IMG/VR virus record: IMGVR_UViG_3300008107_001196
Span: 1 to 24,927 of that record
Source of the DNA: a virus
Length of the DNA: 24,927 bases
Direction: 5' to 3' (one strand)
Shown: positions 1 to 20,969 of the stretch, in pieces
Position numbering within the stretch: the stretch's first letter is position 1
Layout: each line of letters begins with the position of its first letter
Notes under the pieces: generated by a model
Seen by the model: only the letters and a program-made list of their open reading frames with translations
Databases searched by the model: none
What the model was told of the DNA's origin: nothing
Position numbers and translations under genes: made by a program

Positions 1-293
1 GCCATCATATCAACTATCTCACGGACTGATTCCGTCTCCACAACAATTGCATGGACTTTCTCTACATTGAGTCTTTTAAGACTTTCTATGAGATGTTGTC
101 CATCAACAGTGAAATATTCTGTAATACCCGTAACAGCTTTTGTTTTTGCAATTACAGGAGTTCTCAACACACCAATTTTGTTAATAGACTTACTCAAAGT
201 CTTGATGTGTTTCTCAACCTTGTTTCTGTTGAAACTCAGTTCCTTTACCTTTTCTAATGGCACTGCCATATAACTGTGAATTTTAGCTTTCAT
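1..293 (-). CDS. ParB-like N-terminal domain protein, 3' end cut by window edge
   Basis: An open frame starts at an ATG at 293 and runs off the left edge, so only about 97 N-terminal residues are visible. The sequence has the ParB/sulfiredoxin-type layout: a KHIKTLSKSI helix followed by 'G-x-L-x-x-P-V-I', then a VDGQHLIESLKRL segment that matches the DGQHR box of ParB-like domains, here with His-Leu in place of His-Arg. ParB-like domains bind CTP or ATP and act in partition, transcription control or as nucleases. Phages often carry isolated copies of unclear role, so no specific function is claimed. Upstream lies an A/T-rich leader and, beyond that, a strong minus-strand terminator at 335-377, so this gene should start its own transcript. 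Confidence 0.65.
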   Translation of the reverse strand, partial: MKAKIHSYMAVPLEKVKELSFNRNKVEKHIKTLSKSINKIGVLRTPVIAKTKAVTGITEYFTVDGQHLIESLKRLNVEKVHAIVVETESVREIVDMM

Positions 294-334
294 TTGATTT
301 TACTTTTACTAAATTACTTATTTTGTTGCTTTGT

Positions 335-377
335 TAAAAAAAAAAATAAAATAAGAAGCCCGGGTGTTTCACCGGGC
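335..377 (-). terminator. Strong intrinsic terminator (minus strand)
   Basis: GCCCGGGTG at 358-366 and CACCGGGC at 370-377 pair around a three-base loop with one bulged G. Read on the minus strand, the stem is followed by TTCTTATTTTA and then a run of eleven T. It lies downstream of an ORF-free stretch (385-850) and would stop transcripts arriving from the VWA-like gene or starting inside that stretch, insulating the ParB-like gene. Confidence 0.85.
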
Positions 378-384
378 CCCTTAC

Positions 385-850
385 CACATCACAATTAATT
401 TACAAGAGGGCATAAGAACTCGTTACCATGACAATGGCACCAAGCACATAGTGCAATATTCTAATTAAAATCCAAGCATTTCAGCTTCTATCTTATGCTA
501 CCTGTATAAACGTTTGTAAATCATGTAAAGAGACTTTCCAATACCTCAGTATAATCTTAGAAGGGAATACACCCTCTTACCGATAATCATTAAATTTCTT
601 AAATTCTCTTGCTTTTCAATACCACACCTAGATAAAAAATCATCGGCACTTATGTATTAATCATCAATCATATCTAAAATCTTTAACTTTTATAACAACT
701 ACACTAGATTTAAATTTTTCTTCACGCCAGAGGTTGTGCTTGCCACAACGTACAGAATAATATCAAAATAAACTAATGCAGTAGGCTAATTTTATACCTC
801 GCGTAGTAAGCATTTACATCTATACTCACTTGCCTATACAAGCCTTGTAA
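385..850 (-). other. ORF-free stretch, possible structured RNA
   Basis: I find no open frame longer than about 16 codons on the minus strand and nothing convincing on the plus strand. No tRNA signature (GTTCGA-type T-loop) is present. Several small hairpins can be drawn: GTTGTG/CACAAC around a 5-base loop at 734-750; GCAC-ATA-GTGC near 443-453; CCAT/ATGG near 427-438; and the 13-base palindrome TACAAGCCTTGTA at 837-849 just after the stop of the neighbouring gene. The stretch ends in the strong terminator at 335-377. It may be a non-coding RNA, a long 3' UTR or a decayed gene; I cannot tell which. Confidence 0.35.
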
Positions 851-858
851 ATATATAA

Positions 859-1677
859 TCACTTGATAACCAATGACTTTAATGTCTCTGGTGTATCAAG
901 ACCATAATGAATTTTGAACAGTTTTGACTGTTGTTCATGTTTTCCAATAGTATCACAACCGCAATTATGTCCTTTTGTAAAGTGAGTGCAGAAGTGTATA
1001 TTGTATCCTTTGGGAAGATTTCCATAAGCTCCACCACAACCTTGAGTAAAAACAAGAACAGTTTTTCCTTTAGGTACATGTTTTTGCATATGATCCCAAT
1101 AATAACCATCATCATCAAAACGTAACATACATTCATTGTAAACACGGATGCCTTTGATTTTTTGAGCAACTTTAGCCATAGTATAATGAAATCCGTTATC
1201 ATTATTATTGTAACTAACTGCAGCATCTATGTATAAATACAGCTCTACTTTTTCATCGGGCACCATTCTCTTCTCTTCTAATGCTAGATGAGGTTGAGAT
1301 AGAAGCTTCATAAAAACTCTAGGATAATGTAATTTATCTTCTACTAGTATTTCAGTAGTAGCAAGACGTTTTAGTTCTCGCTCAATGAGTTTTTCTTTAT
1401 TTATTTCTTCTACTGATTTTTTATCAAAACCCGGAGTCTTTGAGTCTTTAGTTGATGCACCTTTACCAGCAGTAGGTATTGGTACTTTTTTTGGCTTAAG
1501 TTTTCTTGGATAAAGTTTACTAAGTCTTGTAGATAGAGATTGAATCATTTCATCACTGAGATCATCAATATTATCTGGGTTAACTGTGTACTCCTCACCT
1601 TTAAACTTATGGGTAAATTCTCCTTTGGTCTCAACTAAGTGTCTTGATATTAAAGGATCTTGTCTAAAATGTGGCAT
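859..1677 (-). CDS. VWA-like protein with degenerate metal site, putative MoxR partner
   Basis: This 272-residue protein has a charged, Lys/Pro-rich N-terminal half (residues about 1-110). Its C-terminal half resembles a von Willebrand A fold: strand VELYLYIDAAVSY (145-156), helix, strand IRVYNECMLRF (178-187), then strand KTVLVFTQG (205-213). In true VWA domains these carry the metal site DxSxS and a downstream TDG. Here they read D151-A-A-V-S155 and T211-Q-G, so the site is only partly kept. MoxR AAA+ ATPases are typically encoded next to VWA proteins, and a MoxR-type ATPase lies 73 bases upstream, which supports the assignment. A terminator at 1690-1722 separates the two, so this gene may have its own start of transcription. 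The C-terminal Cys/His residues (C214, C230, H231, H237, C239, C241) could bind metal. The family call is an inference from pattern and context. Confidence 0.5.
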   Translation of the reverse strand: MPHFRQDPLISRHLVETKGEFTHKFKGEEYTVNPDNIDDLSDEMIQSLSTRLSKLYPRKLKPKKVPIPTAGKGASTKDSKTPGFDKKSVEEINKEKLIERELKRLATTEILVEDKLHYPRVFMKLLSQPHLALEEKRMVPDEKVELYLYIDAAVSYNNNDNGFHYTMAKVAQKIKGIRVYNECMLRFDDDGYYWDHMQKHVPKGKTVLVFTQGCGGAYGNLPKGYNIHFCTHFTKGHNCGCDTIGKHEQQSKLFKIHYGLDTPETLKSLVIK

Positions 1678-1689
1678 AATTTTAAATTA

Positions 1690-1722
1690 AAAAATTAAAG
1701 GGAGTTTTACCTCCCTTTTTTT
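1690..1722 (-). terminator. Bidirectional intrinsic terminator
   Basis: AAAGGGAG (1697-1704) and CTCCCTTT (1711-1718) form a perfect 8-bp stem around TTTTAC. T-runs follow on both strands: TTTTTTT on the plus strand, AATTTTTT on the minus strand. It sits 28 bases after the stop of the MoxR-like gene and just before the VWA-like gene. Confidence 0.75.
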
Positions 1723-1750
1723 AAAACTAACTACGTAAACAATACTCTCG

Positions 1751-2614
1751 TTAGAGCATGGATCCTACATACTGAGCTGTATTCTTTGGATAACGCTTTG
1801 ATAGTGCATGTCTAAACAATCTTTGATCAGATTCCTCTTGGGACATCTTCCACAAAAATGCTCTAAACTTCATATCATAAGCAGTTTTTCTACCAATTGC
1901 TTGGGTACCAATGAAATACAACTCTTGTATCAAATCAGCTATCTGATTCTGACTAGGTTTCTTAGATACTTCTAAGGTCCTATATGCAAGAACCAGGTCA
2001 ATGAGGAAGTTAAACTTACTCTCATTGTAGTCTACAGACAACATCATCTTGACTTGTTGTATCAATTCTGATTTTACAGGGAAAGTAAATTCCCGAATCA
2101 TATTAATACGTCTGTCAAGTGCATCTTCCAACTCACGTCTCTTGTTAGAGGTAAGAACAACAAACAAGTTATTCTTATTACCTGTTACTATACCAGTGAT
2201 TGGGTCATTCAGCATACATTCCTGCATATAACTAAGCAAAAAAGTATCTACTGAGGGTTTGGCCTTGTCAACCTCATCTATCAACAGCACAACCTTGTGG
2301 TCATTAGACTTCCGCAATGCTTGTAGTAGATAACCATCTTTCATGGCTTCTCTACCCTTAGTTGCTTCATCAGTCATTGCGTCCACAAGAGTACCCAAAT
2401 CCCAGTTATATACCAACTGATCTGCTGCTACACCATCATAACAGGGAGCAAAGATCAATTCTGCCTCTAATTGAGTGGCCAAGTGTTTAGCAAAACTAGT
2501 TTTACCAGCACCCGGTTCACCAAATAAAAGCATACTAGGTATACAAACAGTGGGATTATTCAGAAGATATTTCACATACTGAATGTCAAGCTGTTTGTCA
2601 AGACTTAGTATCAT
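1751..2614 (-). CDS. MoxR-type AAA+ ATPase
   Basis: This 287-residue protein has a complete AAA+ core: Walker A GEPGAGKT (32-39), Walker B VVLLIDEVDKA (108-118), sensor 1 in LTSN (154-157) and the arginine-finger motif DALDRRI (164-170). Its compact form resembles the MoxR/RavA group, whose members remodel or activate protein targets using ATP, usually through a VWA-domain partner. A VWA-like protein is encoded next (859-1677). The start overlaps the upstream 163-residue gene by 17 bases in another frame, so the two are probably translationally coupled. The role in infection is unknown; assembly of a virion or replication complex, or attack on a host complex, are possibilities. Confidence 0.8.
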   Translation of the reverse strand: MILSLDKQLDIQYVKYLLNNPTVCIPSMLLFGEPGAGKTSFAKHLATQLEAELIFAPCYDGVAADQLVYNWDLGTLVDAMTDEATKGREAMKDGYLLQALRKSNDHKVVLLIDEVDKAKPSVDTFLLSYMQECMLNDPITGIVTGNKNNLFVVLTSNKRRELEDALDRRINMIREFTFPVKSELIQQVKMMLSVDYNESKFNFLIDLVLAYRTLEVSKKPSQNQIADLIQELYFIGTQAIGRKTAYDMKFRAFLWKMSQEESDQRLFRHALSKRYPKNTAQYVGSML

Positions 2615-3089
2615 CTGATCCTCCTAGTTTTTTATGAAGGTCATCCAAACTGCGCAAAAGATTTTTAAGAGGCTCAGGTATATCATCCTCAGCTTCTTTC
2701 ATTTGTTCATAAACCTTCATAAAGCCTAGAACAGCAAGAAAGAACATACCACATTCTCCTAACTCTTTCTCAACACGTTCAAAGATCTCAGATTTTGACA
2801 AAGATTTTACTTCTGAGTCCAAACTAGCTTTTATAAAGATTCTTTTTACATCTTCACTTGCTTTATCTACAGTTTCTTCAGAAATTCCAAGAGCCATCCA
2901 AAAGTTTGATTGGTCATGTTGGTAACCTGTTCTAAAATCACTGCTGGCTTTACTGCTAAAGCTTCCATTACCACCCTCATCAGGTAAGTTTGTAGCTGCC
3001 CACATAATAGCCTTGTTGTTGATCAAATTTGTAGGAGCATTAAACAATGCCTCCATAACTTGCTTTTTAAAGTTACTTCCTTGGTCCAT
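2598..3089 (-). CDS. Hypothetical protein coupled to MoxR-type ATPase
   Basis: This 163-residue acidic, helical protein matches no family I recognise. It has an N-terminal segment rich in Gly/Ser/Asn (residues about 30-55), a central helical region with DVKRIFIKASLDSEV, and a hydrophobic helix MFFLAVLGFMKVYEQM (about 115-130) that could be an interface or weak membrane segment. Its tail is charged. The gene overlaps the start of the MoxR-type ATPase by 17 bases and follows the 59-residue gene by 11 bases, so it belongs to the 3648-to-1751 operon. It may be an adaptor or substrate of the ATPase, but only position suggests this. Confidence 0.75.
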   Translation of the reverse strand: MDQGSNFKKQVMEALFNAPTNLINNKAIMWAATNLPDEGGNGSFSSKASSDFRTGYQHDQSNFWMALGISEETVDKASEDVKRIFIKASLDSEVKSLSKSEIFERVEKELGECGMFFLAVLGFMKVYEQMKEAEDDIPEPLKNLLRSLDDLHKKLGGSDDTKS

Positions 3090-3100
3090 TTTTAAGGTGT

Positions 3101-3280
3101 TTAATAAATGTTTTTGGATAAGATTTCAATTTCTTTCTCTATTCTAGCCTTATCATTACTAGTTAGAGATACCTGATTACCGGTAGTTTTACCATTAATC
3201 TTCTCAGGTTTGGTACCAACCTGTAACTGCTGCTGCAATCTTGCAAGAGCATTCTGCTTTCTGTCTATTGATTTGTTCAT
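3101..3280 (-). CDS. Small basic helical protein, 59 aa
   Basis: An ATG at 3280 opens a 59-codon frame ending TAA at 3101. The protein has a Gln-rich helix (ALARLQQQLQV, residues 11-21), a short Lys/Thr/Gly linker and a second charged helix (SNDKARIEKEIEIL), suggesting a helical hairpin. It sits 11 bases upstream of the 163-residue gene and 9 bases downstream of the 33-residue gene, in the same direction. That tight spacing and the absence of another gene in the gap support it. Function unknown. Confidence 0.6.
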   Translation of the reverse strand: MNKSIDRKQNALARLQQQLQVGTKPEKINGKTTGNQVSLTSNDKARIEKEIEILSKNIY

Positions 3281-3289
3281 ATTAGGATT

Positions 3290-3391
3290 TTAAACAATTA
3301 CTTTCATTATCAGCCACATAACAACGACTGATGCTGCACATAGGACTCCCCCTATGAACAGTAATACATCTTTTTTATTCTCTGACATCAT
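3290..3391 (-). CDS. 33-aa single-span membrane protein
   Basis: An ATG at 3391 overlaps the TAA of the upstream 85-residue gene by one base (TAATG on the minus strand), a common coupling junction elsewhere in this genome. The product has a charged N-terminus (MMSENKKD) and then one hydrophobic segment of about 24 residues, VLLFIGGVLCAASVVVMWLI. It ends shortly afterwards, so it is a minimal membrane peptide, predicted N-in by the flanking charges only weakly. Function unknown; the gene is too small for most gene finders. Confidence 0.55.
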   Translation of the reverse strand: MMSENKKDVLLFIGGVLCAASVVVMWLIMKVIV

Positions 3392-3648
3392 TAAAAATTA
3401 ATATTCATTAGTGACCTATACTTTTTTGGGTTACCACCTGCATCTACAATCTTTCTATATATACTAGAAGCCCAATACTCATTGATTTTTACATTATGAG
3501 TATCATTACTTTTAACATATTTCTTTATCCATACAGTAGGAATCATGATAGTACAATCACTTAATGTAAGTTTTGTGGCATTACCTATTCTCTCCCTACT
3601 GAGTGTACGGAGATTAAAATGTAATGATGGTGCTCTAAAATGTCTCAT
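3391..3648 (-). CDS. Hypothetical basic protein, 85 aa
   Basis: The frame runs from ATG at 3648 to TAA at 3391. The product is Arg/Lys-rich, with a strand-like segment TKLTLSDCTIMIPTVWIKKYV (26-46) and a Tyr/Lys-rich C-terminus. I recognise no domain. It starts the short operon 3648-to-1751: its stop overlaps the start of the 33-residue membrane protein gene. An AAGTTTAA sequence lies 7 bases upstream of the start, resembling but not matching the TTAAACTC element of the other minus-strand genes. Confidence 0.65.
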   Translation of the reverse strand: MRHFRAPSLHFNLRTLSRERIGNATKLTLSDCTIMIPTVWIKKYVKSNDTHNVKINEYWASSIYRKIVDAGGNPKKYRSLMNINF

Positions 3649-3709
3649 TTGATTAAGTTTAAAAGCAGTTTGTATACATGCTTAGGTATGTAGGGAAAGG
3701 GTAAAAACA

Positions 3710-3937
3710 TCATGGGAACATATCATCTATTTTCTCATGTATATACACGGTCACTAAATATATAGCTACTGGTGCCATAACACTAATATAAGCTGGGTGA
3801 GTCACTAATGATCTATAACCCTGCTTATCCCATGTAACAAGAAAAACACACACAGCGGGTGCTATGTACACAATAAGATCAAGTACTATATGTAATAGCA
3901 CAATAAGAAAAAACCGGGAGAATACATGTAACATCAT
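3710..3937 (-). CDS. Two-helix small membrane protein (paralogue 1 of 3)
   Basis: I chose ATG at 3937, giving 75 residues, over a TTG two codons upstream at 3943. There are two hydrophobic segments: about residues 5-32 (FFLIVLLHIVLDLIVYIAPAVCVFLV) and 48-65 (ISVMAPVAIYLVTVYI). A polar link between them contains WDKQGYRSLVTHPAY. The pattern P-A-V ... D-x(3)-Y-x(4)-T-x-P-x-Y is shared with the products of 4124-4339 and 6271-6486, so the three genes are paralogues. Host-membrane targeting early in infection would suit such genes, but that is a guess. The start lies 14 bases from a GCGTTTAA sequence. Confidence 0.65.
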   Translation of the reverse strand: MMLHVFSRFFLIVLLHIVLDLIVYIAPAVCVFLVTWDKQGYRSLVTHPAYISVMAPVAIYLVTVYIHEKIDDMFP

Positions 3938-3948
3938 ATACAATGGTA

Positions 3949-4095
3949 TTAGCGTTTAACTGTAAATGTCCCGGATACAAGTCCTGCTCTACCCACAACA
4001 AAACGGAGGGTAACTCTCTTATATCTAGTCCTAAGACTATCATAAGAACAACATAAAGAGGTATAACTCTTATTAGAAAAACTAATTTGTTTCAT
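3949..4095 (-). CDS. Putative 48-aa basic peptide
   Basis: ATG at 4095 opens a 48-codon frame ending TAA at 3949. The product is rich in Arg, Lys, Ser and Tyr and has no membrane segment. It fills the gap between two paralogous membrane protein genes, in the same direction. It is preceded by an AAACCCCCATTAATCAT sequence (minus strand) that resembles the TTAAACTC-type leaders of the other small genes. No domain is recognisable; coding status rests only on position and leader. Confidence 0.4.
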   Translation of the reverse strand: MKQISFSNKSYTSLCCSYDSLRTRYKRVTLRFVVGRAGLVSGTFTVKR

Positions 4096-4123
4096 GTTAT
4101 AAATGATTAATGGGGGTTTATAC

Positions 4124-4339
4124 TTAGTAATTATCTAACATCTCACCAAATAACATAATAACCACGAACAAGCATATAGTCCCGTAAAATAGAATATATG
4201 GCGGTGATGTAATCATAGAATGGTATACAGATGAATCCCATAGAATAAGTGAACACAAAACCGCGGGTATTATGTACAGCAAAGCAATAAGGGTAAAGAA
4301 ACAAATAAATAGAGCGGTAAATCTAAATAAAGGAATCAT
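4124..4339 (-). CDS. Two-helix small membrane protein (paralogue 2 of 3)
   Basis: This 71-residue product has two hydrophobic segments: about 5-33 (FRFTALFICFFTLIALLYIIPAVLCSLIL) and 49-65. The link is WDSSVYHSMITSPPY. The framework I-P-A-V-x(7)-D-x(3)-Y-x(4)-T-x-P-x-Y aligns without gaps to the products of 3710-3937 and 6271-6486. Both ends are probably on the same side of the membrane. Function unknown. Confidence 0.65.
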   Translation of the reverse strand: MIPLFRFTALFICFFTLIALLYIIPAVLCSLILWDSSVYHSMITSPPYILFYGTICLFVVIMLFGEMLDNY

Positions 4340-4498
4340 AATGGGGAATGGTATTAATGTGTGTATGAATATGAGCGGTAGTAGAGATAATGGTAATAAG
4401 AGATAAACAGAAAGAATAAGATACTAGAGTATATCTAATATCTTATCTAACTGTTCTCTATACACATATCAAACCACCATGATATTGTCACTGTGAGA

Positions 4499-4621
4499 TA
4501 ACTAGTTGATTATTAGCTATGAAATAATCAGAGTAATAGGGATTTTAGTAGTTATGGATAACACTAAAAAATGAAATGAGTGTATTTGCTATCAACAAAC
4601 ACACTCATTATCAACTAGTTA
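4499..4621. repeat. 12-bp inverted repeat flanking hairpins in a non-coding stretch
   Basis: TAACTAGTTGAT at 4499-4510 is repeated exactly, in inverted orientation, at 4610-4621. Between the arms lie a 7-bp hairpin (GATTATT 4508-4514 with AATAATC 4523-4529) and the long hairpin at 4575-4609. The surrounding 4340-4633 stretch has no ORF longer than about 14 codons on the minus strand and no other gene that I can support. Confidence 0.6.
4566..4609 (-). terminator. Probable terminator after the 155-aa gene
   Basis: AATGAGTGT (4575-4583) pairs with ACACTCATT (4601-4609). After one A-C mismatch, TTTG (4585-4588) pairs with CAAA (4596-4599) around a 7-base loop. On the minus strand, six T follow about 4 bases after the stem (4566-4571). 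It begins 25 bases after the stop of the gene at 4634-5101. Confidence 0.6.
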
Positions 4622-4633
4622 CGGTCAAAAACA

Positions 4634-5101
4634 TTAGAACTTGCCTAGTGTTTCATCTTCTTCCACTGAACTATGTTCAGAGATGGTGTCAAGCTTGAGG
4701 GTATTACCTGCAAGCATGAGAGCTGCAATCTGATTACCCAATGTGACCGCCATGTGAGGATACTTTTCAGCCATAGCCTGCATTGTATCAATCTCTGTGG
4801 TGTTCACACTGAAGCCAATCTTACCGTCTTCCTTGACATAATGGTTCAATGTAGCACTATTACCAATGAATTCATTGCTGTGGAACAGTGCCACACCATT
4901 TTCTTCCCTGTAATAGTTCACGCCGTCCTGACTTCTGAACCTTTTGTACAGCTCTAGCTCAGTAGGAGTAGCACCTACAAGGCCATAGCGGAACATTGTC
5001 TTTAGTCTCTTCACTTGATTACCTTGAGCATCAAGCACGGGCAAGCCGTTTTCAGTTACACTACTCAACTTCTTGTAACTGTTAATTAATTGTACTTTCA
5101 T
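4634..5101 (-). CDS. Acidic-tailed protein, paralogue of the 142-aa SSB-like protein
   Basis: This 155-residue protein aligns along its length with the product of 5406-5834. Shared positions include Tyr-x-x-x-Gly near residue 39-43, Lys-Arg after it, ENG (68-70) followed by a Ser, IGN (79-81), a Gly-x-x-Phe strand, and LG (120-121) followed by a C-terminal helix. It ends in an acidic stretch with a terminal Phe (VEEDETLGKF), reminiscent of the tips that phage and bacterial single-strand DNA-binding proteins use to contact partners. An OB fold cannot be shown from the sequence alone. Its leader carries an array of TACTTA repeats. A role in DNA replication is a possibility, not a conclusion. 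Confidence 0.7.
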   Translation of the reverse strand: MKVQLINSYKKLSSVTENGLPVLDAQGNQVKRLKTMFRYGLVGATPTELELYKRFRSQDGVNYYREENGVALFHSNEFIGNSATLNHYVKEDGKIGFSVNTTEIDTMQAMAEKYPHMAVTLGNQIAALMLAGNTLKLDTISEHSSVEEDETLGKF

Positions 5102-5144
5102 TTTGATATATAAATTTAAATTGGTTACATGTTTATTACGTTGA

Positions 5145-5200
5145 TACTTAGATACTTACATACTTAAAATACTTATATACTTAAATACTTTAAATACTAT
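5145..5200. repeat. TACTTA tandem array (main cluster)
   Basis: TACTTA occurs at 5145, 5153, 5161, 5170 and 5178, then as TACTTT at 5186 and TACTAT at 5195, with start-to-start spacing of 8, 8, 9, 8, 8 and 9 bases. A second cluster lies at 5305-5318. The array sits in the leader of the 155-residue gene, between two paralogous acidic-tailed genes. Such short phased repeats can be protein-binding iterons in an origin or an operator. Confidence 0.75.
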
Positions 5201-5218
5201 CATAGCTCACGTCACCCA

Positions 5219-5350
5219 TAATACAGGGTTTAAAAAATATGGCCGAGTTAGAGTAGTAGAAGTACCTGTTGCCCATGTGAGGCATTCAGTTCCTAACACC
5301 TTAATACTTAAATACTTACGTAGCTTATTGTCATTAATACAGGGTTTAAA
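5219..5350. repeat. 16-bp direct repeat TAATACAGGGTTTAAA
   Basis: An exact 16-base copy lies at 5219-5234 and again at 5335-5350, 116 bases apart. Both are followed by AATA-like sequence and GGCC and preceded by weaker similarity (AGCT...GTCA). Each copy lies downstream, on the plus strand, of a TACTTA cluster, so the whole TACTTA-plus-16-mer unit appears duplicated. The GGGTTTAAA part resembles the GAGTTTAA elements before other minus-strand genes, so the copies may be promoters for the gene at 4634-5101. Confidence 0.7.
5305..5318. repeat. TACTTA tandem array (second cluster)
   Basis: Two perfect TACTTA hexamers, at 5305 and 5313 (8 bases apart), repeat the pattern of the main array and again precede a copy of the 16-bp direct repeat. 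Confidence 0.6.
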
Positions 5351-5365
5351 GAATAAGGCCAGCAT

Positions 5366-5406
5366 AAAAAACAAGGGGAACAGCCGAAGCCATTCCCATT
5401 GTTCCC
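5366..5406 (-). terminator. Terminator starting at the stop codon of the SSB-like gene
   Basis: GGGAACA (5376-5382) and TGTTCCC (5400-5406) form a 7-bp stem. On the minus strand the stem begins with the last base of the TAG stop codon and is followed by CTTGTTTTTT. The intervening 17 bases can form a further small hairpin. Confidence 0.75.
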
Positions 5407-5834
5407 TAGAAGGGCTCTGTGCCATCATCCTCAGGCTCCTGATTAGCCTCAGGCTTAGCCTTCTCAATAGGCTTCTGTGGCATGAGCCTGTTAATTAGCT
5501 CAGAGCCAAGTGCTTTCATGAGGGCAGGTGATTGCTCTGACAGGGACTCTAAATCATCAAGGGCCTCAGTGTCAATGAACCAATTGCCTAGTTTTGAGCG
5601 CATTAACACCCCTGTATTGCCAATGCATTTACGCCAGCTATAATAGCGCAGTTCACCATTCTCAAGTAGCTGTGCACCCTTATTAGTGCCCTCTGCAATG
5701 TCACGCTTAAATTGCGCAATCTCAGCAGCATTACCGCTAACGGTATAGGCATATCTACGGCTGTTGGGTTGAATGCTGCCGTCTTTCATTTTGCGGTCCA
5801 TCTTGAATGAACCAGATTGTGTGATGTGTAACAT
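5406..5834 (-). CDS. Putative single-strand DNA-binding protein (acidic DDxxPF-like tail)
   Basis: This 142-residue protein has a globular part up to about residue 118, then a Lys/Pro/Glu linker (QKPIEKAKPEANQEP) and the tip EDDGTEPF. The layout of body, flexible linker and acidic tip ending in Pro-Phe is that of bacterial SSB, whose DDDIPF tip recruits replication and repair proteins. The body does not show an SSB signature I can recognise, but a paralogue with an acidic, Phe-terminated tail lies at 4634-5101. A phage SSB that loads host partners is a reasonable reading. A TTAAACTC motif lies 32 bases upstream of the start, and a terminator begins at the stop codon. Confidence 0.6.
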   Translation of the reverse strand: MLHITQSGSFKMDRKMKDGSIQPNSRRYAYTVSGNAAEIAQFKRDIAEGTNKGAQLLENGELRYYSWRKCIGNTGVLMRSKLGNWFIDTEALDDLESLSEQSPALMKALGSELINRLMPQKPIEKAKPEANQEPEDDGTEPF

Positions 5835-5866
5835 AAGTATAAAAGTATTAAATTATTGATATTCAA

Positions 5867-5874
5867 GAGTTTAA
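5867..5874 (-). promoter_or_regulatory. TTAAACTC element upstream of SSB-like gene
   Basis: GAGTTTAA on the plus strand (TTAAACTC on the minus) lies 32 bases before the start at 5834, followed on the minus strand by TTGAATATCA. The same octamer with similar downstream sequence precedes the genes starting at 6222, 6486 and 6729. A promoter or operator is inferred. Confidence 0.5.
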
Positions 5875-5879
5875 AAGAT

Positions 5880-6008
5880 TCAGAGTAATAGTTAACCTCT
5901 GATGCTACCATTGGACTGGATTAGGATTCCAAGGGATTTGATGTCTTGGACCTTACATACACGTGGTGTATGGTATTGGTAGGTTTCCAATAATAGAGGG
6001 TTTTAAGT
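5880..6008 (-). other. ORF-free cassette, possible small RNA
   Basis: Between the terminator of the 65-residue gene and the SSB-like gene's leader lies a stretch with no usable ORF. On the minus strand it begins with TTAAAACCCTCTATTATT (5991-6008), resembling the TTAAACTC leaders. It contains small hairpins (ATTGG/CCAAT, CCAAG/CTTGG) and ends with a 6-bp stem TCAGAG/CTCTGA (5880-5885 and 5897-5902) followed by ATCTTTT. It has the same cassette layout as its gene neighbours but without a protein, so a small RNA of roughly 110 bases is possible. A decayed gene is the alternative. Confidence 0.3.
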
Positions 6009-6010
6009 AC

Positions 6011-6036
6011 AAAAAAGGGGATGATTAGTCCCCTTT
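6011..6036 (-). terminator. Terminator with stop codon in its loop (65-aa gene)
   Basis: AAAGGGGA (6014-6021) pairs with TCCCCTTT (6029-6036); the 7-base loop holds the TAA stop codon (6025-6027), and T6 follows on the minus strand. The last codons (Lys-Gly-Asp) form the upstream arm. Confidence 0.85.
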
Positions 6037-6222
6037 AATAGTAACCCTAGACTTTATCCTGGTCCAGCTGTCATCCCTCTCTATCCTTATATAGGATACA
6101 TCAATGTGAGTGCTGGTGATATGCTCTGTGACTATATCACGGATCATAAATCCCTTATGTGCCTCACAGATAGATTTTTTAAGAGAATCATAACTCATTG
6201 GCTTATTCATTTCAATATGCAT
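6025..6222 (-). CDS. Hypothetical small protein, 65 aa
   Basis: The frame runs from ATG at 6222 to TAA at 6025. It appears soluble: an N-terminal helix (SYDSLKKSICEAH) followed by alternating strand-like segments (IRDIVTEHI, HIDVSYIRIER, TRIKSRVTIKGD), suggesting a small alpha+beta fold. I recognise no family. A TTAAACTC element lies 25 bases before the start, and the final codons form one arm of its terminator, so it is a complete one-gene transcription unit. This suits a small, early-expressed accessory protein. Confidence 0.7.
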   Translation of the reverse strand: MHIEMNKPMSYDSLKKSICEAHKGFMIRDIVTEHITSTHIDVSYIRIERDDSWTRIKSRVTIKGD

Positions 6223-6247
6223 GATTGTATAATTTACTGATTATAAG

Positions 6248-6255
6248 GAGTTTAA
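6248..6255 (-). promoter_or_regulatory. TTAAACTC element upstream of 65-aa gene
   Basis: TTAAACTC followed by CTTATAATCAGTAAATTAT on the minus strand, 25 bases from the ATG. The downstream part closely matches that of the element at 6519-6526 (TTAATAATCAGCAAATTAT). It directly abuts the U-tract of the neighbouring terminator. Confidence 0.5.
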
Positions 6256-6257
6256 AT

Positions 6258-6282
6258 AAAAAAGGGGAATTTATTCCCCTTT
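6258..6282 (-). terminator. Terminator with stop codon in its loop (71-aa membrane protein)
   Basis: AAAGGGGAA (6261-6269) pairs perfectly with TTCCCCTTT (6274-6282); the four-base loop contains the TAA stop codon (6271-6273). T6 follows on the minus strand. Confidence 0.88.
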
Positions 6283-6486
6283 CTTTTTGGTTACTATATA
6301 GTCTATAAAGGCTCCTGTAAGAAGGAAGCTTGTAATAAACATTACAGAACAATACAATGGCGATGTAATCCATCTCACATAGGTACCCAAGTCAAGGGAT
6401 ACCACAGATGCCATAACAGCTGGTGTAACGAATACAGCCATAAACACAATACATACCTTAAGGTACAGGGACATTAACTTTTTCAT
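6271..6486 (-). CDS. Two-helix small membrane protein (paralogue 3 of 3)
   Basis: This 71-residue product has hydrophobic segments at about 5-30 (MSLYLKVCIVFMAVFVTPAVMASVV) and 42-63. The link DLGTYVRWITSPLY matches the D-x(3)-Y-x(4)-T-x-P-x-Y framework of the products of 3710-3937 and 4124-4339. It ends in the basic tail KKKGE, whose codons form a terminator arm. It has its own TTAAACTC element 32 bases upstream. The function is unknown; three diverged copies in one cluster suggest a family kept under selection for a membrane-related role. Confidence 0.7.
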   Translation of the reverse strand: MKKLMSLYLKVCIVFMAVFVTPAVMASVVSLDLGTYVRWITSPLYCSVMFITSFLLTGAFIDYIVTKKKGE

Positions 6487-6518
6487 ATGATTTATAATTA
6501 TAATTTGCTGATTATTAA

Positions 6519-6526
6519 GAGTTTAA
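6519..6526 (-). promoter_or_regulatory. TTAAACTC element upstream of 71-aa membrane protein
   Basis: TTAAACTC followed by TTAATAATCAGCAAATTAT on the minus strand, 32 bases before the ATG at 6486. It is the copy most similar to that at 6248-6255. Confidence 0.5.
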
Positions 6527-6530
6527 GATC

Positions 6531-6560
6531 AGAAAAAAGAAAGGGCTTAAGCCCCTTTCT
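6531..6560 (-). terminator. Terminator with stop codon in its loop (60-aa gene)
   Basis: AGAAAGGGC (6538-6546) pairs with GCCCCTTTCT (6551-6560) with one bulged C; the loop TTAA contains the TAA stop codon (6547-6549). On the minus strand a T-rich tract TTTTTTCT follows. Confidence 0.82.
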
Positions 6561-6729
6561 TTCTGACAACTTCAAACAGGACCCCCTTATCATTTATAGA
6601 TGATTGGTACTTGATCAATGTACCAGAGGTGATCCAAGTGTTGAGCTTACTTTGAAACTTAGTGAGTTCGGAGAACTCAACGAACTCAATGTCAACACGG
6701 TAGGATGAATTACATGCAGTCTTTTTCAT
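6547..6729 (-). CDS. Hypothetical small protein, 60 aa
   Basis: The frame runs from ATG at 6729 to TAA at 6547. The predicted layout is strand (YRVDIEFVEF), helix (ELTKFQSKLNTWI), strand (TLIKYQSSI), strand (GVLFEVVRKKGA): a small alpha/beta protein of no family I know. It is the first gene left of the divergent region. A TTAAACTC element lies 31 bases upstream. A GGAGG sequence (6750-6754 on the plus strand as CCTCC) is about 20 bases from the ATG, too far for a normal Shine-Dalgarno site. Its C-terminal codons form a terminator arm. Confidence 0.65.
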   Translation of the reverse strand: MKKTACNSSYRVDIEFVEFSELTKFQSKLNTWITSGTLIKYQSSINDKGVLFEVVRKKGA

Positions 6730-6760
6730 AGCTATAAGATTTAAATTTCCTCCTGATAAA

Positions 6761-6768
6761 GAGTTTAA
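6761..6768 (-). promoter_or_regulatory. TTAAACTC element upstream of 60-aa gene
   Basis: TTAAACTC followed by TTTATCAGGAGGAAATT on the minus strand, 31 bases before the ATG at 6729. It is the rightmost copy, next to the GC-rich palindromic patch between the divergent gene blocks. Confidence 0.5.
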
Positions 6769-6783
6769 TACTGTACAACTGAC

Positions 6784-6848
6784 CGGGGGTACCCCACTCT
6801 GCCGGCAGGCCCGGGGGTGTGCTGTATAGGGATCCCTAACAGTGCACT
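6784..6848. promoter_or_regulatory. GC-rich palindrome cluster in divergent intergenic region
   Basis: Within 65 bases there are four perfect palindromes: GGGGTACCCC (6786-6795), CTGCCGGCAG (6799-6808), TAGGGATCCCTA (6827-6838) and AGTGCACT (6841-6848). There is also a direct repeat CCGGGGGT (6783-6790 and 6811-6818). The patch is much richer in G and C than the AT-rich surroundings. It separates leftward from rightward genes, so a control region, origin or packaging-related site is plausible. Nothing in the sequence decides between these. Confidence 0.5.
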
Positions 6849-6890
6849 ATTTATACAATAAAAATTTTAGGAAAAAATTATTTTTGGGTT

Positions 6891-6898
6891 TATCTTTG
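6891..6898 (+). promoter_or_regulatory. Candidate Bacteroidota-type promoter box before tail genes
   Basis: TATCTTTG fits the -7 consensus TAnnTTTG of Bacteroidota promoters. It lies only 4 bases before the ATG at 6903, so it would give a leaderless or nearly leaderless transcript. No clear TTG-type upstream element is seen at the usual distance. Confidence 0.35.
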
Positions 6899-6902
6899 AG
6901 GT

Positions 6903-7226
6903 ATGGCAGTAATTAACAGTATTCAGATTAAACAGGGTATACTTAGTATAGGTAGTAATCCTCTTATTAGTTACCCTAGGGGATTTCAGGGGAGTGTATC
7001 TTTTTTGTTTAATAACCCTATTGCTTATGATATTGAGATTAATGTTACCCGGGTATCTAATGGTACTACTGTTCAGTTGTATGCTTTGTCTCTAGATCCT
7101 GGGGATACTGTTAATGTTACTGAGTTGTTTCTGTTCCCATTAGATAGCATTGATGTGGTTACTAGTGTTGCCGGGACTAGTTATCAGATGTCTTATAGTT
7201 CTGTACCTTTTGCTAAGATTCCATAA
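6903..7226 (+). CDS. Small virion/tail-associated protein, hypothetical
   Basis: This 107-residue protein looks all-beta: alternating hydrophobic and Ser/Thr/Asn-rich segments (SVSFLFNNPIAYDIEINVTRV, TVQLYALSLDPGDTVNVTELFLFP, SYQMSYSSVPFAKIP) suggest a single beta-sandwich. It opens the rightward block. Its TAA overlaps the ATG of the next gene by one base (TAATG). Position at the head of a run of tail genes suggests a virion component. I recognise no named family. Confidence 0.65.
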   Translation: MAVINSIQIKQGILSIGSNPLISYPRGFQGSVSFLFNNPIAYDIEINVTRVSNGTTVQLYALSLDPGDTVNVTELFLFPLDSIDVVTSVAGTSYQMSYSSVPFAKIP

Positions 7227-7538: not shown

Positions 7539-7952
7539 ATGAAAAAAATTGACATGGGTAAATTTGTCCTTCTTATAGGAAAAGATGCTACTGAGATATT
7601 TGATTATTATGGTGTAGATGAGATGCACGGGCTTAACCGTAAAGATGCCCAGGAAGAAGAGATAGATAAGACTAGGGGTAATGGTGTATACATATATGGG
7701 TTTACTAATTATGACCCCAGAGATAAAAAGCTAGCAGCAAAGGCTCCATATAAACCTTTTTTGTTTCTTAATAAGAAGCATTTTAAAAAAAATTATACTG
7801 ATATAACTCTTGTTAATCATGAGGCTATGCATATGGCAATACTGCTTCATAACTGGGATATTAGAGATAAGGAAGAAGATGCTGTATCTCAGGCTGAAGA
7901 GTGGACTAATAAAATAGTTAAATTGTTGAACTTACATAAGTTTACCAAATAA
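7539..7952 (+). CDS. Small zinc metallopeptidase-like protein (HEAMH)
   Basis: This 137-residue protein carries H94-E-A-M-H98 in a helix (TLVNHEAMHMAILLH), the HExxH zinc-binding and catalytic motif of zincin peptidases. An acidic stretch follows (KEEDAVSQAEEW, 111-122) and could supply a third ligand. The N-terminal part is mixed. It lies between two small tail-protein genes, so it may be a virion enzyme, for instance acting on a host surface polymer or in processing a virion protein. There is no signal peptide. The motif is short but sits in a helix with the right hydrophobic pattern. Confidence 0.6.
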   Translation: MKKIDMGKFVLLIGKDATEIFDYYGVDEMHGLNRKDAQEEEIDKTRGNGVYIYGFTNYDPRDKKLAAKAPYKPFLFLNKKHFKKNYTDITLVNHEAMHMAILLHNWDIRDKEEDAVSQAEEWTNKIVKLLNLHKFTK

Positions 7953-7961
7953 TAAAAGAAT

Positions 7962-8291
7962 ATGCCAACAGTATATAAAACATTAGGACAGTCTAACCCA
8001 GTAGCTACAACAGAGACAGCTCTGTATACGGTACCGGCAGCTACCTCAACAATTGCCAGTTCTGTTATAGTATGTAACAGGTCAACGGTGTTGTCTACAT
8101 TTAGAATCTCAATTGCGATTGGTGGAGCATCTACTACTAATAAGGATTATATCTATTATGATTTACCTATAGGTGCTAATGATACGTTTATTGCTACAAT
8201 AGGTGTAACTTTGGCGGCAACTGATGTTGTAAGGGTGTATGCTTCAAATACCAATCTATCATTCTCACTTTACGGATCTGAAATAAGTTAA
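7962..8291 (+). CDS. Small tail-associated structural protein
   Basis: This 109-residue protein belongs to a pattern I know from many phages. It starts near VYKTLGQSNP, then TETALYTVPAATS, a strand block SSVIVCNRS, and ends with the LAATDVVRVYASNTNLSFSLYGSEI-type C-terminus. It is all-beta and probably a virion or fibre-associated protein. It is 9 bases after the peptidase-like gene and 1 base before the next gene, so all are likely co-transcribed. The family recognition is from memory of the motif pattern. Confidence 0.65.
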   Translation: MPTVYKTLGQSNPVATTETALYTVPAATSTIASSVIVCNRSTVLSTFRISIAIGGASTTNKDYIYYDLPIGANDTFIATIGVTLAATDVVRVYASNTNLSFSLYGSEIS

Positions 8292-17035: not shown

Positions 17036-17698
17036 ATGAGCAAATCAAACATTGAAAAAACTGCACCTAAAGGGGCTGTGAACTTCTCGATCACACTATC
17101 AGAAGAACAGAAAAAAGCCAAAGAGTTAATCATTACTAAGCCATATAATTTTGTTATAGGTAATGCTGGTTGTGGAAAAACTCTTGTTGCTGTACAAATA
17201 GCTTTGGATATGTACTTTAAAAGGCAAGTAAATAAGATTATCATTACTAGACCTACTATTTCTACAGAAGACAATGGTTTCTTACCGGGATCTGAAAAAG
17301 AAAAGATGGAACCTTGGTTAGTACCAATTAAATCTAACATGAGAAAAGTATACAATAAACCTGATGTTCTAACTAAAATGGAAGAAGAAGGTTCTATTGA
17401 GCTTGTTTCTCTTAGTCATTTCAGAGGTAGAACCTTTGAAAATGCCATATGTATTGTAGATGAGTTTCAGAATTTGACAAAAGCTCAACTACAAATGTGT
17501 GTAGGAAGACTTGGCAAAGGGTCAATTATGATCTTTACCGGTGACCTTCACCAAATAGATTTAAAGTATAAAAATGATTCTGCTATCCATGAGATTTCTA
17601 AAGTTGAAAAATCTTCTTTTGTAAATAAAATCTTTCTTACTGAAAATCATAGACATGAAGCTCTGACAGAAATACTTAGATTATTGAATGAATACTGA
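17036..17698 (+). CDS. PhoH-like ATPase
   Basis: This 220-residue protein has the complete PhoH layout: Walker A GNAGCGKT (42-49), TRP (71-73), GFLPG (81-85), a run ending in RGRTF (130-134), Walker B VDEFQN (141-146) and TGD (168-170). PhoH-family proteins are ATPases related to superfamily 1 helicases, and many phages carry one without a settled role. Here it overlaps the terminase gene by 11 bases, so its product is made together with the packaging motor. A TATCTTTA box (17024-17031) lies 4 bases before the ATG. Confidence 0.85.
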   Translation: MSKSNIEKTAPKGAVNFSITLSEEQKKAKELIITKPYNFVIGNAGCGKTLVAVQIALDMYFKRQVNKIIITRPTISTEDNGFLPGSEKEKMEPWLVPIKSNMRKVYNKPDVLTKMEEEGSIELVSLSHFRGRTFENAICIVDEFQNLTKAQLQMCVGRLGKGSIMIFTGDLHQIDLKYKNDSAIHEISKVEKSSFVNKIFLTENHRHEALTEILRLLNEY

Positions 17699-20600
17699 AA
17701 TCTATCAACATATTCCCACCTATGAAAATGGAGAATGGAGTTATACGGACTTTGAAAGCAGAAAAGACTTTTATGAGTTCTGTAAATCTATTTTCAAAGA
17801 ACCTGGGAGATATGAATTTGATGAAGTATCTGAGAAATTTAATGAACAGGCTAAACTCTTTGACAAGAATGGACTTTACTGTATAGCACCATCAGGTACT
17901 AAAGATTTCATAAAGTTCTGGGATACAGAAAAAGAGAAATGTAGGAAAGGTGTTATATACAAATCAAATGATAAAACCTGGTATATATCCAGGGATTATT
18001 ATATGTGGCTAAATTTCCTTCCTATTTTCAACAAAGAAATACAAAAGTACGGCTTTGCTGATGTAAGGGATGCACAGTATCATATGGCTCTGTATGAAAT
18101 CTTAGCAGAGCTTGACTATAAACACTGTGCTATTTTAAAGAAACGTCAGATTGCTAGCTCATACTTTCATTGTGGAAAGCTTATAAACCAGATATGGTTT
18201 GAGGAAGGGGTTACCCTAAAGATGGGAGCTAGTCTCAAAGACTATATCAATGAGAAGGGTAGCTGGAAATTCCTTAATGAATATGAGTCATTTCTAAACA
18301 AACATACTGCTTGGTATAGACCTATGAATCCAGACAAAGCAATGTTCTGGCAACAAAAGATTGAGATTGTAAATTTTGTAGGTGGTCAAAAAAGAAAAAG
18401 TGAATTAGGTCTCAAGGGTGTGATCCAGGCTATGTCATTTGAGAAAAGTCCTACTACCGGTGTCGGTGGTCCTACTAAATACTTCTTCCATGAGGAGGCT
18501 GGTATTGCCCCTAAGATGAATCAGACCTATGAGTACCTAAGACCGGCACTTAGATCAGGTATGATTACTACAGGTACATTCATAGCAGCAGGTTCTGTGG
18601 GTGATCTCAGTCAATGTGATCCTTTAAAAAAGCTGATCATGCACCCTGAAGACAATGATATATATGCAGTGTTTTCAGATCTTATAGATGATAAAGGTAC
18701 AATTGGAACAACCGGTTTATTCATTCCTGAGCAGTGGTCTATGCCACCCTATGTAGATAAGTATGGTAATTCTAAAGTAGAAGAAGCTTTGGAAGCACTA
18801 GATATACAATTTGCTGATTGGAAGCAGAAACTAGACCCCCAGGAATATCAACTCCGTATATCACAGCATCCTCGTAATGTAAAGGAAGCATTTGATTTTA
18901 GAAGTGTCTCTCTTTTTCCAGGACATCTTATATCAGCTCAAAATCAAAGGATAGAAGAGAAAGAATATCCATATGAGTTCCTTGATATTTACAGGAATGC
19001 TAAAGGAGAAGTTGCTGTAGAGACAACTAACAAGCTTCCTATCATTGAATTCCCCATATCAAAAAATACAGAGGATAAAACAGGTGTTTTGGTTGTATGG
19101 GAAAGACCTGATAAAAATGCAGAGTTTCTTACCTATTATGCATCTGTTGACCCTGTTGGAGAAGGTAAGGCTGAACATGTTGATAATATGTTATATACAC
19201 CAGAAGGTAGAAAAAGAATAGGCGATATTAAAATTGGAGATAAGGTTATAGGATCTGATGGAGGAGCTATTAATGTAATAGGTGTTTATCCACAAGGAAT
19301 TAAAAAAATGTGTAGTATAACATTCAGTGATGGACATAGTATTAAAGTATGTGAAGATCACTTATGGGATGTAAAACTAAATGGTGGAACAAAAGGATAT
19401 ATTACACTTTCTGTAAAAGATTTACTAGACAATACTAAAACAATTACTTATAATGGAACAGGTAGAAATAGTAAAAAAGAATATATAGTTTCCCCTTATT
19501 ATAAAGATAAGCAAAATAGAAATAAATGGTCAATACCAATAGTTAAACCTATTGGTTTTGATTCTGGTAAAAGATTACCTATCAATCCCTATTTATTAGG
19601 TTTGCTATTAGGTGATGGTGGCTTATCACAAAAGTCTATTAGATTTAGTACAGTTGATACAGAGTTAATTAATTCTATTGAGCATATTTTAGAAGATGAC
19701 TTATTAATAAAAAAGGTTAAAAATTCAAATTGTGATTACTCAATTGTTACAAAAGTTGGTTTAAGAAATTCATTAACTAAAAGATTAAAAGAATTAGGTT
19801 TAAAAGGTAAAAGATCTGAAGATAAATTTATACCTCAAGAATACATGTATGCAATGGGGTCTAGTAGATTATCTTTATTACAAGGGTTAATGGATACAGA
19901 TGGTTCTTATTCAAATCATGGAGCAGAATTTTATTCATCATCAAAAAGATTAGCTTATCAAGTTGTTGAATTAGTTCAATCATTAGGGGGAATAGCAAAA
20001 ATAAGATGTAAAAAAACAACTCATTTAGATTCTTATATTGTAAGAGTCTTATTACCTGAATATCTTAATCCTTTTATATTAACAAGAAAAAGAAAAATTT
20101 ATAGACCATCAAAAGTATTTAGTAGATATATAACAAACATAGAATACGTAGATGATGCAGAAGCTGTATGTATATCAGTTGATGCACCTGATAATCTTTA
20201 TGTTACTGAACATGCTTTAGTTACACATAATACAACAACATCAGAATCTCTATGTTCTATATATGTATATAAAACAGCAGTAGAGGTAACTAAAAATAAT
20301 GGTTCTGAGATTGAGACTTATGTAGAATCTGATAAAATAGTAGCTGCCTGGTGTGGTAGATTTGATGATATCAATAAAACTCATGAGAGATTAGAGATGA
20401 TAATTGAATGGTATAATGCCTGGACTATTGTGGAAAACAACATTAGCCAGTTCATTAACTATATGATTTACAGAAAGAAACAAAAGTATCTAGTACCTAG
20501 ATCTCAGATTCTTTTCCTTAAAGATATTGGGGCTAATGCCAATGTATATCAAGACTATGGGTGGAGAAACACCGGTACTTTGTTTAAGAGTCATATGCTA

Positions 20601-20969
20601 AGTTATGCAATTGAATATCTTAAGGAAGAACTAGATCATGATGTTACCTCTGAAGGAAAAGTAGTAAGGACAAAATATGGTGTTGAAAGAATACCAGACC
20701 CTATGCTATTAAAAGAAATGATAGCTTACAGAGATGGTGTTAACGTGGATAGACTAGTTAGCTTTGCAGCACTTATAGCTTTTGCAAAAGTTCAGCAAGC
20801 TAATAGGGGTTACAAAAAGCGTTATGAGGAAACAGATCTAGCTAAAAAATTGGATAACTCAAATAAATTCAGTAAATTAACTAAGAGCCCTTTCCGTAAT
20901 TTAGGAGGAAGTGGTTCAAAGAATGATACAATGAGAATTCCTAAACAGCCATTTAGAAATTTAAAATAA
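17688..20969 (+). CDS. terL: Terminase large subunit interrupted by an intein
   Basis: The frame is 1093 residues; removing the intein (495-848) leaves 739, a normal size for crAss-like TerL. The N-terminal ATPase part includes a Walker A-like region (AILKKRQIASSYF, about 148-160) and an acidic Walker B-like segment (KYFFHEEAG, about 264-272). The C-terminal nuclease domain begins with YYASVDPVGEGK, in which D488 is the expected first catalytic Asp of the RNase H-like fold. The intein follows directly after K494, and the protein resumes as TTTSESLCSIYVYK. TerL drives DNA into the prohead and cuts concatemers. The gene follows PhoH by overlap and precedes the portal by 1 base. Confidence 0.9.
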   Translation: MNTEIYQHIPTYENGEWSYTDFESRKDFYEFCKSIFKEPGRYEFDEVSEKFNEQAKLFDKNGLYCIAPSGTKDFIKFWDTEKEKCRKGVIYKSNDKTWYISRDYYMWLNFLPIFNKEIQKYGFADVRDAQYHMALYEILAELDYKHCAILKKRQIASSYFHCGKLINQIWFEEGVTLKMGASLKDYINEKGSWKFLNEYESFLNKHTAWYRPMNPDKAMFWQQKIEIVNFVGGQKRKSELGLKGVIQAMSFEKSPTTGVGGPTKYFFHEEAGIAPKMNQTYEYLRPALRSGMITTGTFIAAGSVGDLSQCDPLKKLIMHPEDNDIYAVFSDLIDDKGTIGTTGLFIPEQWSMPPYVDKYGNSKVEEALEALDIQFADWKQKLDPQEYQLRISQHPRNVKEAFDFRSVSLFPGHLISAQNQRIEEKEYPYEFLDIYRNAKGEVAVETTNKLPIIEFPISKNTEDKTGVLVVWERPDKNAEFLTYYASVDPVGEGKAEHVDNMLYTPEGRKRIGDIKIGDKVIGSDGGAINVIGVYPQGIKKMCSITFSDGHSIKVCEDHLWDVKLNGGTKGYITLSVKDLLDNTKTITYNGTGRNSKKEYIVSPYYKDKQNRNKWSIPIVKPIGFDSGKRLPINPYLLGLLLGDGGLSQKSIRFSTVDTELINSIEHILEDDLLIKKVKNSNCDYSIVTKVGLRNSLTKRLKELGLKGKRSEDKFIPQEYMYAMGSSRLSLLQGLMDTDGSYSNHGAEFYSSSKRLAYQVVELVQSLGGIAKIRCKKTTHLDSYIVRVLLPEYLNPFILTRKRKIYRPSKVFSRYITNIEYVDDAEAVCISVDAPDNLYVTEHALVTHNTTTSESLCSIYVYKTAVEVTKNNGSEIETYVESDKIVAAWCGRFDDINKTHERLEMIIEWYNAWTIVENNISQFINYMIYRKKQKYLVPRSQILFLKDIGANANVYQDYGWRNTGTLFKSHMLSYAIEYLKEELDHDVTSEGKVVRTKYGVERIPDPMLLKEMIAYRDGVNVDRLVSFAALIAFAKVQQANRGYKKRYEETDLAKKLDNSNKFSKLTKSPFRNLGGSGSKNDTMRIPKQPFRNLK
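19170..20231 (+). mobile_element. Class 3 intein with LAGLIDADG endonuclease inside terL
   Basis: The 354-residue intein spans TerL residues 495-848. The N-terminal block reads AEHVDNMLYTPEGRKRIGDI, with Ala where Cys or Ser is usual. Block B has H558-L-W560 (HxW), and block F has VCISVD with C828 at the F:4 position. The end is THN (H847, N848), followed by extein T849. Trp in block B, Cys at F:4 and Thr after the terminal Asn is the signature of class 3 inteins, which splice without a nucleophile at position 1. Two LAGLIDADG-type motifs, LLGLLLGDGG (636-645) and LLQGLMDTDG (730-739), indicate a homing endonuclease. By hand count 29 of 36 Leu codons are TTA, more uniform than in neighbouring genes. 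Confidence 0.93.

Follow-up and report, generated by a model that had tools for sequence, protein, structure and literature searches.

Pairs of a MoxR-type AAA+ ATPase and a VWA-domain partner are widespread, and in NorQ-NorD, CbbQ-CbbO and RavA-ViaA the gene for an AAA_5/MoxR-like ATPase adjoins that of its (VWA) partner, as in the locus described here. In the case of NorQ-NorD, the two subunits form a 6:1 complex, and mutants in the MIDAS of NorD keep NorQ binding while losing client maturation (PMC9976466). The contacts between them are a NorD finger inserted in the pore of the ring and a hydrophobic C-terminus; judging from the residue numbering, this finger would lie ahead of the strands of the VWA core (PMC13036017). 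Viruses also carry such machines: in the Acidianus two-tailed virus (ATV), an archaeal spindle-shaped virus, the p618 ATPase binds virion proteins as well as its VWA partner p892, and has been proposed to act as a chaperone in tail development (PMC4124505); a MoxR-vWA pair with a metallopeptidase in jumbo-phage group 2.2 was suggested to act in virion assembly (PMC7824862); MoxR-VWA pairs are known from haloviruses (PMC7911831); and a Bacillus phage is reported to have a MoxR-type chaperone of two subunits (PMC2147016). Among the viral pairs that we found, that of ATV alone has interaction data.

The window considered here is a 24,927-nucleotide stretch of viral DNA (IMG/VR record IMGVR_UViG_3300008107_001196), whose rightward genes include PhoH, the terminase large subunit, the portal and a virion structural protein. 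The closest named relatives of the portal are in Leptolyngbya phage Lbo-JY46 (32%), csAssE-Sib, which is crAss-like, and several Crassvirales, and on this kinship of the portal the phage is a distant member of the crAss-like group. A first-pass annotation had singled out two leftward genes as a MoxR ATPase paired with a degenerate VWA-like protein. We compared the window with seven IMG/VR contigs (G001-G007) and found the ATPase gene followed directly by that of its partner in all eight records, even where the partner is only 27-29% identical; such pairing of genes is by itself no proof that their products bind. The module is larger than first described, comprising four genes rather than two (Table 1): the order 59-aa peptide, 163-aa protein, AAA+ ATPase and VWA-like protein is shared by the window and five of the seven contigs (G001-G004 and G007). 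G005 and G006 retain the ATPase, the partner and a divergent upstream gene; no copy of the 59-aa peptide was found in either.

Table 1. Features of the four-gene module, with positions in the window unless a contig of a relative is named.
Feature	Position	Strand	Basis or remark
Conserved 59-aa peptide, encoded at the head of the module	3101..3280	(-)	gene order, conservation
163-aa protein	2598..3089	(-)	17-nt overlap with the ATPase gene; homologues in the same place in close relatives
287-aa MoxR-like AAA+ ATPase (AAA_5)	1751..2614	(-)	ORF, motifs, profile matches
Terminator-like hairpin AAAGGGAGGTAAAACTCCCTTT, then AATTTTTTAA	1718-1697	(-)	between the ATPase and VWA-like genes
272-aa VWA-like probable adaptor without MIDAS	859..1677	(-)	predicted Rossmann-like core, residues about 142-272
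Residues 112-138 of the partner (VEDKLHYPRVFMKLLSQPHLALEEKRM)	1264..1344	(-)	most conserved stretch of the partner (per-10-residue conservation), predicted helical
D151-A-A-V-S155	1213..1227	(-)	place of the DxSxS MIDAS motif; D151 alone invariant in eight homologues
T211-Q-G-C-G215	1033..1047	(-)	corresponds to the strand end with the TDG-like MIDAS motif; Q212, G213, C214, G215 invariant
N238-C-G-C241 ... H247-E248	934..966	(-)	N238, C239, G240, C241, H247, E248 invariant
Genes for a conserved ~90-aa protein with a weak GroES/Cpn10-like match	L005 8990-9262; L008 11184-11462; L020 about 7724-8011; L004 9471-9734		downstream of the module in four relatives

Across the relatives, identity to the window's copies is 58-88% for the ATPase, 27-70% for the partner and 25-50% for the 163-aa protein, the figure of 25% resting on alignment and position. 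The ATPase and partner genes are under purifying selection: in close pairs, with dS of 0.7-1.9, dN/dS is 0.09-0.12 for the ATPase and 0.12-0.17 for the partner, and thus neither gene is decaying. Two very similar relatives (L009 3807-4586 and L010 6828-7607) showed about equal dN and dS (0.04 each) in the VWA-like gene and a dN/dS of about 0.12 in the ATPase gene, both from small counts. Searches of cellular genome contigs recovered no bacterial or prophage copy of the partner and, for the ATPase, generic AAA fragments only; neither protein had a profile-level match in six named phages whose portal or terminase genes are related (three Crassvirales genomes, Leptolyngbya phage Lbo-JY46, csAssE-Sib and bajarodcaudo virus 1).

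The 287-aa protein is, with good support, a MoxR-type ATPase, and the first-pass description of it as a complete AAA+ protein was correct. Walker A (GEPGAGKT, residues 32-39), Walker B (VLLIDE, 109-114), the sensor-1 TSN157 and DRR169 are all present, and both Walker motifs, sensor 1 and the arginine finger are invariant in the eight homologues; read by eye, the sensor-2 site has KPSQNQ and no clear Arg. Its best Pfam match is AAA_5 (9e-15), the group that includes MoxR, NorQ and GvpN-like proteins. Against NCBIfam, MadB_ATPase comes first (3e-21), followed by GvpN (6e-8); the score of 75.8 bits to the MadB model (NF047784), with its curated cut-off of 475 bits, makes the protein a relative rather than a member of that family. 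A conserved stretch of ~30 residues between the Walker motifs (residues 71-100) lies, by eye, at the expected place of the MoxR helix-2 insert, to which it may correspond. The nearest relative of the ATPase in a named phage is that of Acinetobacter phage MD-2021a (profile E 3e-18; 32% over 145 aa), which itself matches MadB at 2.5e-36. A gap of 15 nt separates its gene from that of a CoxE-type VWA protein (8.6e-8), in the same gene order as in the window, lending independent support to the MoxR-VWA style of the present pair. The VWA protein of MD-2021a, of 395 aa and with the motif FDVGGSM, has no detectable relation to the 272-aa protein.

The identity of the 272-aa partner is less immediate: it has no match in Pfam, PHROGs, NCBIfam, PADLOC or the sequences of the PDB, and no detectable sequence similarity to the partners in cellular MoxR-VWA pairs. 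With reversed and shuffled controls, hhalign comparisons to 12 CoxE-type VWAs scored no better than shuffles, and those to receiver domains likewise gave no signal, the family being too shallow for the method (Neff about 2). The VWA-like strand order claimed for it holds only as predicted secondary structure. The missing profile match is weak negative evidence, since one relative (G004) encodes a second MoxR-VWA pair (L080 11052-13502), an AAA_5 ATPase and after it a clear VWA protein, and the latter, with intact-looking ESGSM and SDG motifs that the 272-aa family lacks, also escapes Pfam.

An AlphaFold2 model of the partner, built from seven sequences, is of moderate quality (pLDDT 68.9, pTM 0.55). 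At the N-terminus it predicts a small alpha/beta part, from which a disordered linker (about 59-84) leads to a helical region (86-138) and then to an alternating beta-alpha core (142-272) that is Rossmann-like, with the Asp of DAAVS and the TQG at the ends of central beta strands; a core of another kind would have told against the proposed pair. In a VIA-align search with this model, the VWA domain of NorD, in complex with NorQ, takes the first three places among solved structures (Z 7.3, 7.0 and 7.0; 130-139 residues aligned at 3.4-3.5 A), the match spanning residues 87-272 and thus including the helical stretch ahead of the core. From Z 6.8 downwards come receiver domains, within 0.5 of the leader, and further Rossmann-like folds; as rows within Z 1 count as tied and every match has Z < 8, the NorD match is a pointer and not proof. 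Foldseek found no match with E < 0.001 in the PDB or BFVD, with several VWA proteins among the weak top matches from BFVD, where they carry no statistical weight. We accordingly regard the partner as probably a VWA-domain protein, an identity favoured by the model and short of proven; of the originally proposed pair, the ATPase stands firmly and the degenerate VWA half provisionally.

One alternative holds that the 272-aa protein is some other Rossmann-like alpha/beta protein, receiver-like or of a new fold, which carries a zinc-binding insert and works next to the ATPase as a dedicated adaptor or an enzyme. In its favor, such folds tie with VWA in the structural comparison and outrank it in the poor model (pLDDT 55.5) of a divergent homologue from L009 (28% identical), which does not favour VWA; moreover, the Cys/His motifs are the best-conserved part of the C-terminal half. 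We nonetheless consider it unlikely, if well short of negligible, given the pairing with a MoxR-like ATPase, the position of the Asp and TQG at strand ends, as expected, the NorD domain as top structural match and the clear VWA protein of G004 that Pfam misses as well.

The first-pass annotation had read DAAVS and TQG as a broken metal site, and this is confirmed, with D151-AAVS and TQG213 in the corresponding positions. Judging from the alignment, the MIDAS is gone from the whole family and not just from the window's copy: the TDG position is (T/S)QG, with Q in place of the Asp, in all eight homologues. What is kept instead is an invariant Cys/His motif, and NCGC...HE together with C214 might form a metal (zinc) site. 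The partner also differs from NorD in size, with 272 against about 640 aa, and resembles it in having a conserved extension ahead of a predicted C-terminal core, which best matches the NorD VWA, and a conserved, hydrophobic C-terminus. Residues 112-138, directly ahead of the first core strand, are a candidate contact with the ATPase ring; conservation of the protein is highest at residues 111-130. Given that NorD MIDAS mutants still bind NorQ, a partner without MIDAS could, by analogy, still work as a docking adaptor.

These observations lead to the proposal of a phage MoxR-VWA-like remodelling chaperone with a MIDAS-less adaptor, acting most likely in the assembly of phage proteins; taken as a whole, we would give this reading an even chance of being right. 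The AAA+ protein would probably form a hexameric ring, on which the minimal VWA-like adaptor would dock, probably via residues 112-138 and/or its hydrophobic C-terminus, so as to transmit the ATP-driven movement of the ring to a client. With the MIDAS absent and QGCG, NCGC and HE invariant in every homologue, client contact should bypass the usual Mg-bridged acidic residue and use another surface, perhaps around the putative Cys3-His zinc site. The two small proteins, of 163 and 59 aa, would likely serve as accessory subunits or as ones specific to the client, and the likeliest client would be a structural or assembly complex of the phage.

The hairpin between the ATPase and partner genes, as first reported, is present, and a GC-rich hairpin with a T-run recurs at this junction in six of the eight records, with stem letters changed and complementarity kept. 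With folding z-scores of -3.4 to -5.0, it stands out more clearly in five relatives than in the window, where the value is only -1.9. It had been taken to hint at separate control of the two genes, a view now weakened and which we judge less likely than attenuation. Hairpins end nearly every leftward gene (11 found in window 1-7000 (-) against 3.1 expected from shuffling, with no excess in the rightward arm), so that the one at the junction is partly house style of that arm; only about 19 nt lie between the hairpin and the following ATG, which leaves no room for a promoter; and in G005 and G006 the two genes overlap by 4 nt without a hairpin, which is hence not essential to the module. Partial read-through, leaving ATPase in excess over adaptor, is the simpler and likelier reading, and matches the 6:1 NorQ:NorD complex (PMC9976466). 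Thus, the hairpin would stop most transcription after the ATPase gene and yield several ATPase subunits per adaptor. A more ambitious form of the proposal envisages that these MoxR adaptors are a family of their own, their VWA MIDAS replaced by a Cys/His metal site, and that they work in a dedicated four-protein machine with the two small proteins in an environmental crAss-like clade, where a conserved terminator inside the module fixes the ratio of the subunits; this we put forward tentatively and consider doubtful in its entirety.

A role in assembly, which the first-pass annotation had suggested beside the dismantling of a host complex, is favoured by analogy with the viral MoxR-VWA pairs, together with a downstream gene in four relatives for a conserved protein with a weak GroES/Cpn10-like match (Cpn10 E 0.004 in one of three tested proteins), which hints weakly at a neighbourhood concerned with folding. 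The ATV system is alike in combining a viral MoxR ATPase, a VWA partner and further interacting proteins (there p387), and differs in the larger size of its proteins. The jumbo-phage system is likewise a phage chaperone with a VWA partner; there, the vWA protein has an N-terminal metallopeptidase, whereas here a HExxH protein is unfused, and found near the module or elsewhere in only three of the eight records. The main rival to assembly is that the same machine acts on a host complex, be it respiratory, envelope or defence, for take-over or counter-defence. Respiratory and metabolic complexes are targets of cellular MoxR-VWA pairs (PMC3893208, PMC10585395), and the module lies with small genes in the leftward arm, apart from the virion genes of the rightward arm and with a ParB-like gene nearby. 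No particular host complex is indicated, and the one viral pair with interaction data, that of ATV, touches virion proteins (PMC4124505); hence, we think a host client rather improbable, and retain assembly as the preferred role. As to the motor itself, Clp ATPases head its PDB sequence matches and NorQ comes lower and weak, so that its clade is not airtight by sequence; in PHROGs it matches a clamp loader (1e-14). An unfoldase or loader of the ClpX or clamp-loader type, with an unrelated neighbour sharing only the operon, is nevertheless very improbable: MadB, AAA_5 and GvpN score as well or better, a conserved stretch occupies what by eye is the MoxR helix-2 insert place, and the pairing with the partner is kept across deep divergence.

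Machines of this kind are already known in other viruses; what appears new is the small MIDAS-less Cys/His adaptor, the block of four genes and the lineage of phages that carries it, given that the literature searched contains no report joining crAss-like phages with MoxR, and that neither the six named relatives nor the cellular contigs yielded a counterpart. In such a compact pair, the two tasks of a VWA partner, to dock on the motor and to grip the client, would come apart, and the need for a MIDAS could be tested directly. The pair also points to a function for a module that is conserved in phages related to the crAss-like group, and, if the hairpin does set the subunit ratio, to a simple design for machines built from a ring and a single adaptor.

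Several further features of these phages were noted. PADLOC matches of the module were to generic AAA, and a defence system (MADS, IetA) was therefore dropped as a candidate. The terminase large subunit (window 17688-20969 (+)) has an intein-like insertion at about residues 490-850. The start of the ParB-like gene (window 1-293 (-)) is cut by the end of the window, with a complete homologue at L008 8365-9093. The small protein with an invariant HExxH, a putative metallopeptidase (window 7539-7952 (+), L005 4887-5333 and L008 3999-4382), shows the variants NHEAMH, NHEMTH and NHEMAH; its gene is 5' of the module and in the same direction in two relatives, and on the opposite strand amid virion genes in the window. 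Finally, G002 encodes a 932-aa virion-like protein (L027 382-3180) that combines Sortilin/BNR-like repeats with a canonical VWA domain (PF00092, 1e-6).
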